Source: Sphingomicrobium sp.
Lineage (GTDB): Bacteria > Pseudomonadota > Alphaproteobacteria > Sphingomonadales > Sphingomonadaceae
NCBI GenBank assembly: GCA_036563485.1
Contig: DATCMI010000001.1
Span: forward strand, 1,799,501-1,863,500
Direction of reading: 5' to 3'
Length of the DNA stretch: 64,000 nucleotides
Part shown: positions 2,814-42,056 of the stretch, piece by piece
Layout of the letters: every line of letters begins with the position of its first letter
Numbering within the stretch: position 1 is the stretch's first letter
Translations under genes and position numbers: made by a program
The notes under the pieces: generated by a model
Databases searched by the model: none
Told to the model about the DNA's origin: nothing
The model's input: only the letters and a program-made list of their open reading frames with translations

Positions 2814-2865
2814 AAGCCCGTGAGGCGAGGAGCGCGGCTGCGTGCGACCGCGCTCCCCTAATCTG

Positions 2866-3051
2866 TCAGTGCGGGCGAACGCGCTTGGGCTGCTCACGCC
2901 ACGGGGCATCGAACTCGATGCGGTGAAGGGCCTCTAACGTGGCGACAATCGCACGGCCGAGACGGGCGAAGCCCGCGTCCAGCGCCCTGTTCATCTCGGC
3001 GCGGCCCGCCTGGTAGTTCCGGTCATAAATTTCATCGACCATCGTAACCAT
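2866..3051 (-). CDS. Small hypothetical protein
   Basis: A 61-residue reading frame begins MVTMVDEIYDRNYQAGRAEM and ends QPKRVRPH. It is amphipathic and helical in character, with no signal peptide or membrane segment. I chose the ATG at 3051 because AGAAGG lies about 9 nt upstream; an ATG at 3042 with AAGG upstream is equally possible, and a TTG at 3078 would extend it. It sits directly downstream of another small frame (3075-3197) on the same strand, probably in one transcript. No family recognised. Confidence 0.6.
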   Translation of the reverse strand: MVTMVDEIYDRNYQAGRAEMNRALDAGFARLGRAIVATLEALHRIEFDAPWREQPKRVRPH

Positions 3052-30768: not shown

Positions 30769-33057
30769 TCAGCCGGCCGTGACGAAGCTGTCTAAGACCT
30801 TCTTGCGGCCGGCATGTTCGAAATCGATCTCGAGCTTGTTGCCTTCGATCACGGCGATGGTTCCGTAGCCGAACTTCCCGTGGAACACGCGTTGGCCGAG
30901 GGACAAGTCGGTGCGGCCCTTGTTGCCCAGGGACACGGCTGACGCGCGTGATTCGATTACCCGCGCCGGCTCGGCGTTGAACCGGCCGCCGCTGGCGCGC
31001 TGCCAGCCGGGACCCCGAGTGCTTGCGCGGTTCGACTGAGCGGCAGCAAGGTGAGCGAACGGATCGGTCCGCCCCGACCATTGCGCCCGCCACAGGCTCT
31101 CGCCCCCCGTCATGGTGGTCTCTTCCTCGATGTGGTCCTTTGGCAGTTCGCCCAGGAACCGCGACGGTATCGAGCTGGTCCACTGACCGTAGATGCGCCG
31201 GTTCGCGGCGTGCAGGATGGTACAGCGGCGCCGCGCGCGGGTGATCGCGACGTAAGCGAGACGGCGTTCTTCCTCGAGGCTAGCGAGCCCGCCCTCGTCC
31301 AGCGCCCGTTGTGACGGGAACACGCCTTCTTCCCAGCCGGCGAGGAAAAGGGTGTCGAACTCAAGTCCCTTGGCCGCGTGGATTGTCATGATCGTGACGC
31401 GTTCGCCTTGGCGCGCCTCGTCATTGTCCATGACCAAGCTGACATGCTCGAGAAAAGCCTGGAGCGATTCATATTCTTCCATGGCGCGCGTGAGCTCGGC
31501 GAGGTTCTCGAGACGGCCCGCGCTTTCGGCCGAGCGGTCGGCCTGAAGCATTGCGGTGTAGCCGCTTTCGTCCAGCATGATCCGAGCGAGCTCGGGGTGC
31601 GGTAGCTCCGACGCCATCTGCCGCCATCGCGCAACTTCGGCGACGAAGGCTCCAAGGCTGCGGCGGGCTTGGGGAGTCAGCTCATCGCTGTCGAGGAGGG
31701 TTGCTGCGGCGAGGAGCAGCGGCTGTCCGGTCGCCCCGGCATGACGATGAATGGTCGCGATCGCTTTGTCGCCGAGTCCCCGCTTGGGCGTGTTGACGAT
31801 CCGCTCGAAAGCAAGGTCGTCGGCGGGCTGGGTGATCAGGCGAAGATAGGCGATGGCATCCCGGATCTCGGCGCGCTCATAGAAGCGGAAGCCGCCGATG
31901 ATCTGATACGAAAGCCCGATCGCGATGAAGCGCTCTTCGAACTCGCGGGTTTGGAACTGAGCGCGAACGAGGATGGCGATGTCGTCAAGGCTGCCGCCGG
32001 AGCGCATATGTGATTCGGCCTGCTCGCCGACGCGCCGTGCTTCTTCGGGACCGTCCCATACCCCAATGATGCGCACCTTCTCGCCTTCGCCGGTGTCGGT
32101 CCAAAGCCGTTTGCCGAGACGCCCGGTGTTGTGGGCGATCAGCCCGTCGGCCGCCGCGAGGATGTGCGAGGTCGAGCGGTAATTCTGTTCGAGGCGGATG
32201 ATGGCCGCGCCCGGGAAGTCCTTTTCGAAGCGAAGGATGTTAGCGACCTCCGCCCCGCGCCACGAATAGATCGACTGGTCGTCGTCACCGACGCAGCAGA
32301 GGTTCCGGCGCGGCTCGGCGAGTAGGCGCAGCCATTCGTACTGGCCCTGGTTCGAGTCCTGATATTCGTCGACGAGAATGTAGCGGAAGCGGTCGCGATA
32401 GGCTTCGAGCACGTCGGAGTGAGTGCGGAAGATGACGAGCATGTGGAGCAGCAGGTCGCCGAAATCGCAGGCGTTCAGCGTACGCAGGCGCTGCTGGTAC
32501 TGAGCGTAGAGTTCAGCGCCGCGGCCGGCGGCGAAAGCTTCCGCTTCGCCTGCGTCAATTTGCGACGGCGTCCATCCCCGGTTCTTCCAGCGGTCGATCA
32601 GGCCGGCGAGCTGACGGGCCGGCCAGCGCTTCTCGTCGAGGTTCGCGGCCTGGATCAGCTGCTTGAGCACGCGCAGCTGATCGTCGGTATCGAGGATGGT
32701 GAAGTTCGATTGCAGGCCGACCAGTTCCGCATGGGTCCGGAGCATGCGCGCGGCTACGGAGTGGAAGGTGCCGAGCCACGGCATCCCTTCAATCGCGCCG
32801 CCGGAGATGCGGGACACGCGCTCCTTCATCTCGCGCGCCGCCTTGTTCGTGAAGGTGACGGCCAAGATCTGGCTTGGCCATGCCCGGCGGCTGGCAATCA
32901 GGTGCGCAAGGCGAGCGGTCAGCGCGGACGTCTTGCCTGTGCCGGCGCCGGCCAGGACCAAGACGGGCCCCTCGGTGGTGAGCACAGCCTCCCGCTGCGG
33001 CGGGTTGAGCCCGTGAAGATAGGGCGGATCGTGGGCGAGAGTGGCGGATTCGGGCAC
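30769..33057 (-). CDS. uvrD: ATP-dependent DNA helicase of the UvrD/PcrA/Rep family
   Basis: This superfamily 1A helicase unwinds DNA 3'-5' in excision and mismatch repair. The sequence has LNPPQREAVLTTEGPVLVLA with the Q motif, the P-loop GAGTGKTSALTARLAHL, DEYQDSN (motif II), GDDDQSIYSWRGAE (III), TIHAAKGLEFDTLFL (V) and VAITRARRRC (VI). The C-terminal Tudor-like segment GQRVFHGKFGYGTIAVIEG is typical of PcrA/UvrD. The frame is open to 33246. I choose the GTG at 33057 (VPESATLAHD), giving 762 residues as in the family, but no clear ribosome binding site decides this. Confidence 0.93.
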   Translation of the reverse strand: MPESATLAHDPPYLHGLNPPQREAVLTTEGPVLVLAGAGTGKTSALTARLAHLIASRRAWPSQILAVTFTNKAAREMKERVSRISGGAIEGMPWLGTFHSVAARMLRTHAELVGLQSNFTILDTDDQLRVLKQLIQAANLDEKRWPARQLAGLIDRWKNRGWTPSQIDAGEAEAFAAGRGAELYAQYQQRLRTLNACDFGDLLLHMLVIFRTHSDVLEAYRDRFRYILVDEYQDSNQGQYEWLRLLAEPRRNLCCVGDDDQSIYSWRGAEVANILRFEKDFPGAAIIRLEQNYRSTSHILAAADGLIAHNTGRLGKRLWTDTGEGEKVRIIGVWDGPEEARRVGEQAESHMRSGGSLDDIAILVRAQFQTREFEERFIAIGLSYQIIGGFRFYERAEIRDAIAYLRLITQPADDLAFERIVNTPKRGLGDKAIATIHRHAGATGQPLLLAAATLLDSDELTPQARRSLGAFVAEVARWRQMASELPHPELARIMLDESGYTAMLQADRSAESAGRLENLAELTRAMEEYESLQAFLEHVSLVMDNDEARQGERVTIMTIHAAKGLEFDTLFLAGWEEGVFPSQRALDEGGLASLEEERRLAYVAITRARRRCTILHAANRRIYGQWTSSIPSRFLGELPKDHIEEETTMTGGESLWRAQWSGRTDPFAHLAAAQSNRASTRGPGWQRASGGRFNAEPARVIESRASAVSLGNKGRTDLSLGQRVFHGKFGYGTIAVIEGNKLEIDFEHAGRKKVLDSFVTAG

Positions 33058-33199
33058 AGGTCCGAAGTAGGGGGAGGGGAACGGAACGGCAACCGAGGAG
33101 GCGCGATCCGGCAGTTGCGGGAAGGTTCCCCTGATTGTGCCCGATATCCACGGTATCCACAGGGTCAACCCCGCATTTTCCGCTTCCGCGACTCGGCAG

Positions 33200-33738
33200 C
33201 GAGGAGCATAAGGAATGGGTGATCGGGACGGCGGTCCCGGCCTCATCGGAAGACCGGAAACGGGAAGAAGATGCGGCAGGTGACCAAAGGTCCGATCTCC
33301 GCCGGCAGGAATTGGGAAGCACCTTTCGAGGTTCTTCTCGGGCCAGCCGGGAAGAGGCGCCGGAAGAGTCGATTTTCCTCAAGCGCGACGCGGCTCCTGA
33401 AGGTCTTCGGACCGGAGGTGAGCAAAGCGAAACGCGAGAGAGGTCGACCCAAGAAGGGCCGCGGAACACCGGGCGGTTTTGGCCCATGAGACCTCGGTTT
33501 CATGAGGACGGGCCGGAAGAGCGAAAGGCAAGCGAACCTTCGGGCGGCGCAGTCGAGTAGGTCCAAGGCTCCTCGCAAGAGGGAGCGGCACGGTAGGAAG
33601 CGACGCCTGAGCTGGTGAGCCAGGATCGAGAAGCGGGGTCACAAACGGTTTTACCGGGAGGGACCAAGGTAGATCGAACACCGGCAGATCCTTCGCTCGG
33701 CGCAGTGGGGGCTGGCAGAAATGCCGGCCCCCATTTCT
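33200..33738 (+). ncRNA. Candidate long structured non-coding RNA
   Basis: The 880 bp between uvrD and the next gene hold no convincing protein gene. From about 33200 the plus strand is purine-rich and packed with local hairpins: CGGGAC/GTCCCG (33224-33239); ACCT-TTCG-AGGT (from 33322); CTCC/GGAG enclosing GGTC-TTCG-GACC (33394-33417); GGCCCATGA/TCATG..GGGCC (33481-33514); a GCTCCTC-GCAA-GAGGGAGC GNRA hairpin (33568-33586); CTGG/CCAG (33612-33623); and nested GGTC/GACC with CGG/CCG (33637-33665). It ends in a strong terminator (33705-33738). UUCG and GNRA tetraloops joined by A/G linkers are typical of large RNAs. It lacks the conserved cores of RNase P, tmRNA and SRP RNA. Short frames across it (72 and 141 codons) look like products of the purine bias. 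The 5' end is a guess. Confidence 0.45.
33705..33738 (+). terminator. Rho-independent terminator after the structured region
   Basis: GGGGGCTGGCA, a GAAA loop, and TGCCGGCCCCC form an 11-bp stem with one U-G pair, followed by ATTTCTGTTT. It has no protein gene directly upstream on the plus strand, so it implies a non-coding transcript ending here. Confidence 0.8.
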
Positions 33739-33935
33739 GTTTGAACTCGCCGCATTCGATGCCCTGCGCGACCCCTAATCTTTAAAATCATGCCTTTGTT
33801 GAAGAAGGCGGAAACGAAAGTCAGCCTGCGCGTTCAGCGATTCAGGTGGGCGGCGGCAATTGTGCCGCTGGAGCGGCGGGTGACCCCGCGAAGTACTCCT
33901 TTGCGGGACCCGTGTTGGGCGCGAAGGAGTGTCAC

Positions 33936-34484
33936 GTGCTCAAGATCGCCGCTCTCATCATCGCCTCGGCCGCAGGATCGCTGGCCACCGCAGCAACCAC
34001 CAGCAGCTCCGAAGCGATGCTCGCCTCGCATTCGCCGTGGTGGGAAAAAGTGACGGTCACCATGAGCGGCGACGGCAACCCGCAATCCTGCCGCTACGAA
34101 ACAAGCGTGAAGCCCAGCGCGACCGAACATTGCGATGTTGCGTCCACCCAAGCAGCTGCGATCGGCAAGAGTTCGTCGGGCGACGGCACCGTTACCCGGA
34201 TCACTTTCGAGCGCCGCTTCACGCCCGGCGAGACGCCGGTGAAACCGGAACTTTCGACGGGCGACACTTTGCTCGGTGGGCAGGTGATGGCGATCAACAT
34301 TGGCAATGACGGCAAGGTCAAAGGCTGCAAGGTAGTCGCCATGTCGGGAGCGATGCGTCCGGAATATAGCTGTGCCGACGCAAGCGCGGAGCGGTTCGAG
34401 GCCAGCCTTGGGACCGGTAAGCCGACAGAGCGGCAAGGCTATATGACCATCATCGTGTACGGCCATTCTGAATATATGGTTTGA
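33936..34484 (+). CDS. Secreted protein of unknown function
   Basis: A 182-residue protein starts at GTG 33936, with AGGAG six nt upstream. It has a signal peptide (about 1-20, cleavage near ATA-ATT) and a mature domain with four spaced cysteines (near SCRYE, HCDVA, GCKVV and SCADA) that could form two disulfides. The segment VMAINIGNDGKVKGCKVVAM resembles the TonB-C-like repeats in periplasmic proteins (cf. INxDGxVxxCxVxxSSG). That likeness suggests a stand-alone TonB C-terminal-like fold. I know of no assigned function. Confidence 0.65.
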   Translation: MLKIAALIIASAAGSLATAATTSSSEAMLASHSPWWEKVTVTMSGDGNPQSCRYETSVKPSATEHCDVASTQAAAIGKSSSGDGTVTRITFERRFTPGETPVKPELSTGDTLLGGQVMAINIGNDGKVKGCKVVAMSGAMRPEYSCADASAERFEASLGTGKPTERQGYMTIIVYGHSEYMV

Positions 34485-36214: not shown

Positions 36215-37512
36215 GGAACGATCGATGGGGTGATCGTTCGCGACCATCCCCACGTTCTAAATCTTTGCTGACGACGGGTCGGTGCCCTCCTCTCGGACGG
36301 CTCCGACGGACACATAAAACTCAACATCACGGGCGCCGAGTTGGCCGGCTATGCGGTTTACGGCAGCTCCGTCCGAGCGGCCTTGGAGCCGCTGGTAAGC
36401 AGCTTTGTTGTGCACCTATACGACGGCGGGTCCGCTTTGCGGCCGCCCGATCAACAGACCGCGTGGGCCACTAGCGATCACCAGCTTGGCAGCAGCTGGA
36501 ATGGAAAAGAGGGAGCTCGCATTGAGCGAGAGCATCAGGCCTCAGGCGGCCCCGCGGTGTTGAGGATGTCGTACTATGATGCCGCACGCGACTATCAGTC
36601 GGCGGAGGCGAGAGCCCGTGCGGGTGGCAAGGGTGTGCGTGAGGAGCAGATTGAGCTCCCAGCCGTACTTGCCGCGTCGGACGCAAAGTCGCTCGTGCAT
36701 GAGATCATCGCAGCGCGGTCGACACGCCGGGACAGGCTCACTCTCCGGCTGCCGCCGTCCTTCGCCGCTCTCGAGCCAGGTGAACACATCCGCTTACCCA
36801 CCGATCCGAGAACGTGGACGGTGGAAAAATGCACCATAGAGGGGTTTGTCGTGACCGCGGAACTTACCCCCCGATGAGGCAACTTCCCACGATAGCTGCC
36901 GAGCCTGGTCGGATCATCGGCAGTCCGGACAATCCACTCGAACCGGTCATGCTCGCGCTGTTCGAAGCGCCGACGGAGTTGCGGCAGAACCCGGAGCCAC
37001 TGCTCTTGCTCGCAGCGAGTTCTCCCGGCCCCAGCTGGAGACGCTATGGCGTAGAAATCCGCCACGCGGAGCAGAGCTACGCCATGCGGACGTCCGGACG
37101 AAGGTCGGTGCTAGGCCGTGCCGCCGCAGGGATCGAGGCCACGGCGGACTGTTGTGAAGTCATGCTCCATGATCCGGAGCAATGGCTCACCAGCTGTACC
37201 GACGAAGACCTGCGGAGCGGCGCAAATCTTGCTCTGCTAGGCCGAGAGGTCATTCAGTTCGGTCGCTGTACGCCGAAGGGGGGCGGGCGCTTCGAGCTCG
37301 GGCGATTGGCGCGTGGACGACTTGGCACGAGCGGGATTGAACATCCACGATCTGTTCCGTTTGTGCTTCTTGATCGCGGTTCGTTGGAACCGGTGCGCTT
37401 GCCCGTTTGGGTGCCCGGCGAGACCGTGGAAGCAACCATTCCCGGCACAGAGGCACGAACAGTGCTTACGCCGACCATTGCTGGTCAGGATCCAGTCTTC
37501 ACCAAATACTAG
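36215..37512 (+). pseudogene. GTA host-specificity / tail protein remnant (C-terminal part)
   Basis: Several frames together encode the C-terminal third of the large GTA tail protein with the TIM-barrel-like domain. The first is a damaged segment at 36215-36340 (SGTIDGVIVRDHPHVLNL, then an in-frame TGA, then GALLSDGSDGHIKLNITGAE). The frame to 36877 carries RMSYYDAARDYQSAEARARA and REEQIELPAVLAASDAKSL. A shifted frame from 36874 then carries GANLALLGREVIQFGRCTPK and GGGRFELGRLARGRLGTSG. The upstream two thirds are missing. The frame change at 36874 is an ATGA overlap, so the last piece could still be translated. Its stop overlaps that of the convergent L,D-transpeptidase gene. Confidence 0.8.
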
Positions 37513-41980: not shown

Positions 41981-42056
41981 TGGTGGGCGGTGACGGGCTC
42001 GAACCGCCGACCCTCTCGGTGTAAACGAGATGCTCTACCAACTGAGCTAACCGCCC
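41981..42056 (-). tRNA. tRNA-Val (anticodon UAC)
   Basis: The minus strand gives a 76-nt cloverleaf: acceptor GGGCGGT/ACCGCCC (7 bp), D-arm GCTC-AGTTGGTA-GAGC, anticodon arm TCTCG-TTTACAC-CGAGA with anticodon TAC, variable loop GGGTC, T-arm GGCGG-TTCGAGC-CCGTC, and an encoded CCA end at 41981-41983. The 3' end starts at the base after the stop of the convergent regulator. Confidence 0.97.

Follow-up and report, generated by a model that had tools for sequence, protein, structure and literature searches.

An apparently new family of large structured RNAs in sphingomonads, with a predicted cell-cycle-type promoter

What is encoded by the stretch that separates a uvrD/pcrA-type helicase gene from the next downstream frame in a Sphingomicrobium genome, and, if its product is an RNA, when would that RNA be made and what might it do? 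The stretch lies in 64,000 nt of Sphingomicrobium sp. (assembly GCA_036563485.1, contig DATCMI010000001.1, positions 1,799,501-1,863,500 of the forward strand), which were analysed as a whole and are called the window here. A preliminary description, made from the letters of the window, had proposed a long, hairpin-rich noncoding RNA at this place. The evidence set out below supports 33218-33742 as a putative standalone structured-RNA gene, with its own predicted promoter (33143-33212) and an intrinsic terminator.

The locus, its homologues and known genes

The RNA gene and the hairpins that can be read directly from its sequence are as follows.

33218-33742, plus strand: structured noncoding RNA of about 525 nt, both ends putative, drawn from homology, covariation and folding energy
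33321-33332, plus strand: hairpin ACCT-UUCG-AGGT
33402-33413, plus strand: hairpin GGUC-UUCG-GACC
33481-33514, plus strand: nested pair GGCCC/GGGCC with CAUGA/UCAUG
33537-33544, plus strand: hairpin CC-UUCG-GG
33568-33586, plus strand: GCAA-capped stem
33704-33742, plus strand: intrinsic terminator, stem 33705-33736 followed by TTTCTG, with compensatory changes

All hairpins named in the preliminary description are present, ACCT-UUCG-AGGT lying one base from the place first given for it. The purine richness that had been remarked on is likewise borne out, since 33218-33742 is 59.4% purine on the plus strand (z 2.6 against the window), and a skew as strong in either direction occurs in 5 of 605 window 525-mers. 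Compared with dinucleotide shuffles, the folding energy of the region has a z of -3.34 on the plus strand and -2.47 on the minus strand, with none of 100 shuffles folding as well on either strand; because both strands beat their shuffles, energy alone prefers the plus strand only mildly.

Homology of the region goes well beyond chance: by blastn it is matched in 52 of the 61 genomes of the same genus, its own one counted, and a DNA search of the family matched 52 of 298 genomes, many of them over only about the last 50 bases. An alignment of 32 sequences contains islands of near-identity at GTGATCGGG, CCGATCTCC, GGCGCCGGAAGAG (core1), CCAAGAAGGGCCG (core2), GCGACGCCTGAGC (core3) and GCTCGGCGCAG (core4), as well as at the terminator. 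Core1 and core2, at a loose distance, were sought in 84,980 species genomes; 74 loci came out, of which 37 also carry core3 and then core4, while in a thirty-eighth (L174) core3 stands close to a contig end. By their titles the 38 loci come from Sphingomonas (S. sediminicola and S. daechungensis, two culturable species, among them), Sphingomicrobium, Sphingobium boeckii and metagenome bins called Sphingomonadales, Alphaproteobacteria or Proteobacteria, and the RNA is present in at least 37 contigs of this one-genome-per-species collection. The other 36 loci, which are without core3 followed by core4 and come mostly from unrelated phyla, were taken as chance matches, one Sphingomonas locus (L104) included. 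Merging of identical bodies left 61 matches, 60 of which were used as the set of distinct homologues.

R1, a covariance model built on the 3' domain, matches 22 of the 298 family genomes at E<1e-7. At E<=1e-3 it matches 135 of the 298, and 104 of 246 genomes of the order, and the weak matches were not accepted as members because it is mostly the terminator hairpin that lies behind their score. Class-wide, R1 matches 4 of 190 genomes, namely the window's own, one family member and two others; the two weak matches outside the family are terminators behind protein genes. Viral contigs gave four pattern matches, three of them without core3, and on one viral-classed contig (L237, IMGVR_UViG_3300025909_000161) the RNA adjoins uvrD, so that the contig appears to be chromosomal, at least there. 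A plasmid search gave no match to the RNA. As these searches stand, the predicted RNA has so far been found only in sphingomonads.

The size of the region falls within the range of RNase P RNA and tmRNA, which invites the reading that it is a housekeeping RNA (RNase P, tmRNA, 6S or SRP) or else an overlooked protein gene, a reading whose probability we regard as negligible. Among the 60 loci, the distances between successive cores are spread over all three phases (26/21/13, 21/20/19 and 22/22/16), and no frame is open across core1 in all 60, the shortest stop-free span being 8-23 codons in the six frames. The distances and the lack of a common open frame rule out a conserved protein, and the earlier statement that no convincing gene is present agrees with the absence of a conserved reading frame among the 60 homologues. 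As for RNase P RNA, RF00010 has no match in 32900-34000 at E<=10, and the RNase P RNA of the same genome lies elsewhere (C1:49240-49614, 281.5 bits). In the window ARAGORN found a single tRNA but no tmRNA, Rfam has no tmRNA match in the region, and the cores of RNase P, tmRNA and SRP RNA, which had already been judged missing by eye, have no match there at E<=10, nor has 6S RNA.

The Rfam scan that the preliminary description had asked for gave no family at cut-off over the region. Run on the window at gathering score, Rfam 15 (4227 families) returned only a tRNA elsewhere. This sole match at cut-off is a tRNA-Val (TAC) at 41981-42056 on the minus strand. At E<=10 the region has four matches, all far under cut-off, the best being McaS with 25.4 bits against a cut-off of 42; McaS and BjrC68, which cover the terminator end, were rejected as lying below cut-off. 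Comparison of eight diverged loci with Rfam at E<=1 listed six matches, all of them below cut-off. One of the loci, L077, has a sub-threshold match to the Caulobacter small RNA CC2171 at 2854-3017 on its minus strand (E 4.9e-8, 51 bits against 75), which was set aside, being about 1 kb away from the RNA. Searches of open-licence PMC papers gave no description of the sphingomonad RNA among the papers listed; of two papers on RNA discovery, one names odc1 of S. echinoides as the only sphingomonad element in its main text (PMC8632094), and the main text of the other holds no sphingomonad names (PMC11109978). Lying outside all Rfam 15 families at cut-off, the large RNA family looks new.

The junction core and its variable arms

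A consensus fold was computed with RNAalifold on the 32 aligned sequences, and pairs were counted on the 60 homologues. The elements of the proposed fold, in order along the RNA, are these.

33221-33297, plus strand: 5' domain closed by P1, GATCGG 33221-33226 with CCGATC 33292-33297 (RNAalifold)
33302-33350, plus strand: P2, CCGG 33302-33305 with CCGG 33347-33350, a variable hairpin within (32-sequence RNAalifold)
33357-33703, plus strand: junction core closed by PA, GCGCC 33357-33361 with GGCGC 33699-33703 (60 sequences)
33362-33365, plus strand: J1, joining strand GGAA, nearly invariant
33368-33448, plus strand: Px, 33368-33374 with 33442-33448, closing a variable hairpin (covariation)
33449-33455, plus strand: J2, joining strand CCAAGAA, purine-rich and nearly invariant (alignments)
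33456-33608, plus strand: PC, GGGCCGC 33456-33462 with GCG-AC-GCCT 33600-33608 (covariation in part)
33463-33599, plus strand: length-variable arm closed by PC
33609-33698, plus strand: P3, GAGC 33609-33612 with GCTC 33695-33698 (covariation in part)

RNAalifold placed 67 pairs on the 32 sequences, 22 of them changed on both sides. The shared core of the 60 homologues reads as a four-way junction of PA, Px, PC and P3, an arrangement first suggested by reading outgroup sequences and here predicted from comparative evidence. Compensatory changes, which the preliminary description had proposed looking for, are plentiful in Px and occur in PC, P3 and the terminator as well; kinship among the sequences inflates all of the shuffle tests given below.

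The best case is Px, which is paired at its five variable positions in 58, 58, 60, 53 and 52 of the 60 homologues, and three of whose positions show all four Watson-Crick pairs. Its first position, for instance, is TA in 18 homologues, AT in 19, CG in 13, GC in 7 and GT in 1, and the corresponding shuffles pair on average in 23.3 and at most in 36. Positions 1-4 lie above the best of 5000 shuffles, and the fifth ties with the best. In a sliding control, 94% of pairs form in the register used, against at most 48% at six other offsets, the register having been picked after the fact from this control, since an earlier one was one base off (48% paired).

The support for the remaining helices of the junction differs from pair to pair. 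In PC, the pair 33462/33600 is formed in 58 of 60 homologues by CG, TG, GC and AT (0 of 2000 shuffles reach that) and the next in 23 of 60 (18 of 2000 do), the inner pairs are all but invariant and are placed by position, and the outermost positions are no better than shuffles over all 60. The third pair of P3 is formed in all 60 (GC in 58, TG in 2, these being close relatives; 0 of 2000 shuffles); beyond its first pairs P3 is no better than shuffles over all 60, and its sliding control is weak, with 64% against at most 54% at other offsets. Single outgroups extend both helices with sequence of their own, P3 by unrelated complementary sequence that forms ten perfect pairs in L074 and eight in L034, and PC by GUG/CAC, AUGC/GCAU or CUG/CAG. 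Covariation thus supports Px, and PC and P3 in part, as elements of the predicted fold. When the 3' part is folded alone, core3 is predicted to pair with core4 instead, as a rival to this arrangement.

The outer closing stems vary too little for such an argument. PA is paired in 60 of 60 homologues and scarcely changes (GT in 4 of 60 at one pair); it is proposed as the closing stem from its position, covariation giving no proof of it. The P1 pairs are invariant in 32 of 32 sequences, so they are compatible with covariation and unproved by it, and the P2 pair 96/201 has a two-sided change in 5 of 32 and is broken in 1. The terminator covaries among the 32 sequences, with GC, AU and CG at one pair (28/2/2) and CG and UA at another (30/2). 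The strong terminator that had been noted without a protein gene ahead of it was accordingly found again as a conserved, covarying stem at 33705-33736.

The conserved parts of the RNA are 33357-33374, 33442-33462, 33600-33612 and 33695-33738 on the plus strand. Of the hairpins that had been put forward as the heart of the RNA, the terminator is indeed conserved, but the other stems sit in variable arms outside the core. The GCAA-capped stem, the pair at 33481-33514 and the UUCG stem at 33537 are within the arm between core2 and core3, which ranges from 50 to 337 nt among the 60 homologues, and the other two UUCG stems are inside the variable hairpins of P2 and Px.

Large size and invariant junction letters amid variable arms could also point to a catalytic RNA or, as with OLE, ROOL and GOLLD, to an RNA-only assembly; the junction would be the site of catalysis or of assembly, and two copies might be joined through the invariant palindrome GGCGCC. 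OLE, ROOL and GOLLD do form homo-oligomers, according to PMC12286853. The palindrome, however, is equally well explained by PA pairing, and catalysis or RNA-only assembly is held to be improbable.

The predicted promoter and the bodies behind it

The elements upstream of the RNA are the following.

33143-33161, plus strand: two DnaA-box-like repeats 11 bp apart, GATATCCA and GTATCCACA (alignments)
33153-33161, plus strand: the second DnaA-box-like repeat, GTATCCACA, one mismatch from the consensus TTATCCACA
33184-33212, plus strand: sigma70-type -35 TTCCGC (33184-33189), 17-bp spacer and -10 CATAAG (33207-33212), placed by eye from the family alignment
33190-33194, plus strand: GACTC, a GANTC (CcrM-type methylation) site directly behind the -35, at about -29
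about 33218, plus strand: putative 5' end of the transcript, at the GGTGATCGGG start

Relative to this putative start, the second DnaA box is centred at about -62. In a guided motif search of the 60 loci, among which L134, without upstream sequence, is still counted, TTATCCACA occurs with at most one mismatch in 58 and exactly in 48, and GANTC is at its site in 52, 51 of them in a YGAKTCG-like context. In the window itself the context is CGACTCG (33189-33195), the other strand of which, CGAGTCG, fits the GcrA motif YGAKTCG. GcrA has been proposed to activate methylated promoters with this motif (PMC7987155), and gcrA is present in the same genome at G000:C1:1793322-1793945, some 39 kb away from the RNA. 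Of the loci whose upstream sequence is available, seven are without GANTC at the site (L012, L042, L090, L093, L095, L100 and L168), so that control by GcrA and CcrM would not be universal; L012, L093 and L095 carry GANTC elsewhere between DnaA box and start. There is no TTAA in 33090-33220, which was the test made for a CtrA site.

Nearly every homologue has upstream a form of GATATCCCCGTTATCCACAGG, with GCGACTCG mostly 24-25 bases on, and after it a -10-like box placed by eye. Less guided than the motif counts on the 60 loci is a search for the exact pattern TTATCCACAG, 20-34 bases, GCGACTCG, which occurs at 19 places in 18 of the 298 family genomes (reversed control, 1). Behind the pattern, eighteen of these places have an RNA marked by core motifs, by an R1 match or by a like terminator; the nineteenth (L188) has no terminator in 620 bases. 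Across the class, 3 of 289 genomes hold the exact pattern, and none of the three places has core motifs or such a terminator in 620 bases downstream. A 22-mer around the window's own DnaA box has one match in the genome at up to three mismatches. On this evidence the predicted promoter travels with the RNA. A second pattern, CGACTCG, 3-9 bases, CATGANANCTT, was seen 12 times, in 11 of 298 genomes, against 0 for its control, and was rejected as a clean marker, because one of the five new places listed (L223, in G236) enters a protein-like stretch without such a terminator.

The predicted DnaA box and the predicted GcrA/CcrM-type site together make the promoter resemble cell-cycle promoters of Caulobacter, where GANTC lies at -28/-29 in ctrA P1 and at -24 in podJ P2, the latter with a DnaA motif at -82, and where mipZ P2 has DnaA motifs at -52 and -83 (PMC4287350). 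GANTC between -35 and -10 goes there with activation at 40-60 min; GANTC within 50 bp is found at only 31% of GcrA-bound cell-cycle start sites, and DnaA- and GcrA-controlled starts have many different profiles (PMC4287350), so that the promoter sites do not fix the timing. These Caulobacter promoters have a similar arrangement of sites but drive protein genes, as described in the same paper, whereas the product of the sphingomonad promoter would be a structured RNA.

The DnaA boxes have also to be weighed as the thing itself, that is, as a DNA element that titrates DnaA or is linked to an origin, with a transcript that has no role. The compensatory changes, however, act on the fold of the RNA, downstream of the boxes, and the DNA element is given a very small chance. 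The GC skew of 20 stretches and the window is a weak signal that neither marks nor excludes an origin here. In the genus the boxes at 33143-33161 also lie upstream of the divergent uvrD, on which they might act.

Covariation, a conserved promoter and terminator, the absence of a frame and the absence of an Rfam family all agree with the original reading of a long structured noncoding RNA. At several loci from several genera (L039, L175, L176 and L228-L230), promoter and terminator enclose a body without a recognisable core, and such bodies behind the same predicted promoter may be this RNA as it occurs in other genera of sphingomonads. At L188 and L220, too, a DnaA-box or GANTC promoter stands before a long body without a recognised core. 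Two tandem copies about 440-480 bp apart occur in each of L037 (G273), L038 (G310) and L040 (G226), with promoter and terminator alike and bodies diverged, as in a duplicated RNA gene drifting apart.

Neighbouring genes and candidate roles

Because the RNA lies upstream of a frame (33846-34484), it might be a cis-acting leader or riboswitch of that gene. This is very improbable: the RNA ends in a conserved terminator, and the downstream frame, which has no Pfam family, is matched at 6 of the 32 loci from the window's genus, one of the 6 being the window itself, and at none of 24 others, the downstream genes varying between genera. On the upstream side, the minus-strand helicase gene with UvrD domains is matched at 31 of the 32 genus loci and at none of the 24 others; in 30 of these loci the start of uvrD lies upstream on the opposite strand, in L015 it is the end of uvrD, in the other orientation, and L020 has no uvrD in the stretch examined. 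Elsewhere the neighbours include FtsK, Omp85, RsmB/F, a TbpB-like protein and two oxidoreductases, and of 18 neighbour proteins scanned 6 have a Pfam family and 12 have none. Since the neighbours differ between genera, action in trans is most likely for the RNA. At 36341-37512 on the plus strand, some 2.6 kb farther downstream, two overlapping frames match Phage-tail_3 and Rcc01698_C and appear to be pieces of one tail gene split between frames, which we take to be of the gene-transfer-agent kind.

The reading that we prefer, at about even odds, is a free-standing gene of a trans-acting structured RNA whose synthesis is timed to replication and whose junction serves to bind a protein or to build up an RNA-protein particle. 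Transcription by RNA polymerase carrying the housekeeping sigma factor would begin at about 33218 and end at the terminator near 33742. The timing of this synthesis to replication would most likely come from DnaA, bound near -62, and from GcrA, bound near -29 at the GANTC site, as we infer from the position and conservation of the promoter sites. The RNA would then fold into a 5' domain and a four-way junction with GGAA and CCAAGAA joints, from which species-variable arms extend, and the junction would most likely be the working part, binding a protein or building an RNA-protein particle in S phase. A bolder version, possible and clearly less probable than the reading just given, makes this family a class of replication-clock RNAs, switched on by DnaA and by fork passage (GcrA at CcrM-methylated DNA), with the junction holding an S-phase particle of RNA and protein or of RNA only. 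Promoter and terminator would be fixed in such a class and the body fast-evolving, so that copies in many genera would be recognisable only by promoter and terminator.

The main rival to protein binding is base pairing, by which exposed stretches would pair with cell-cycle mRNAs, as proposed for CcnA and EcpR1, on a larger scaffold. The cell-cycle-type promoter sites, the conserved CCGAUCUCC and the purine-rich unpaired stretches would all suit such a regulator, yet conservation is strongest in the helices and the junction and not in a single exposed seed, and the arms and their loops change freely; base pairing is entertained as a tentative alternative. CcnA of Caulobacter crescentus, likewise a noncoding RNA of an alphaproteobacterium, has its expression coupled to cell-cycle regulators, but its gene is described as short, situated in the replication origin and activated, it is presumed, by CtrA (PMC8959179), whereas the sphingomonad RNA is about 525 nt long, has no TTAA in 33090-33220 and has neighbours that vary between genera. 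EcpR1 of Sinorhizobium meliloti, also an alphaproteobacterial RNA linked to cell-cycle control, is set apart by its description as a trans-encoded small RNA (PMC4414408).

By its build, the sphingomonad RNA belongs among large free-standing RNAs, being longer than 300 nt, with covarying helices, a promoter and terminator recognised by sequence, and no frame. Few large structured RNAs are without a known role, and the ones that have been solved are unusual assemblies or enzymes. OLE, ROOL and GOLLD occur in other taxa, and we know of no DnaA-box/GANTC promoter for any of them. They too are large, free-standing and strongly structured (PMC12286853); the sphingomonad RNA differs in reaching no Rfam cut-off and in its promoter with a DnaA box and a GANTC site. 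Large free-standing structured RNAs are thus known as such, and the sphingomonad family, which matches none of them, appears to add a promoter of the cell-cycle type. It supplies a ready family for Rfam; its core, backed by covariation, is open to probing straight away, and its promoter gives a prediction of when the RNA is made. If that timing is true, it would link a large RNA to the DnaA/GcrA/CcrM circuit of sphingomonads.
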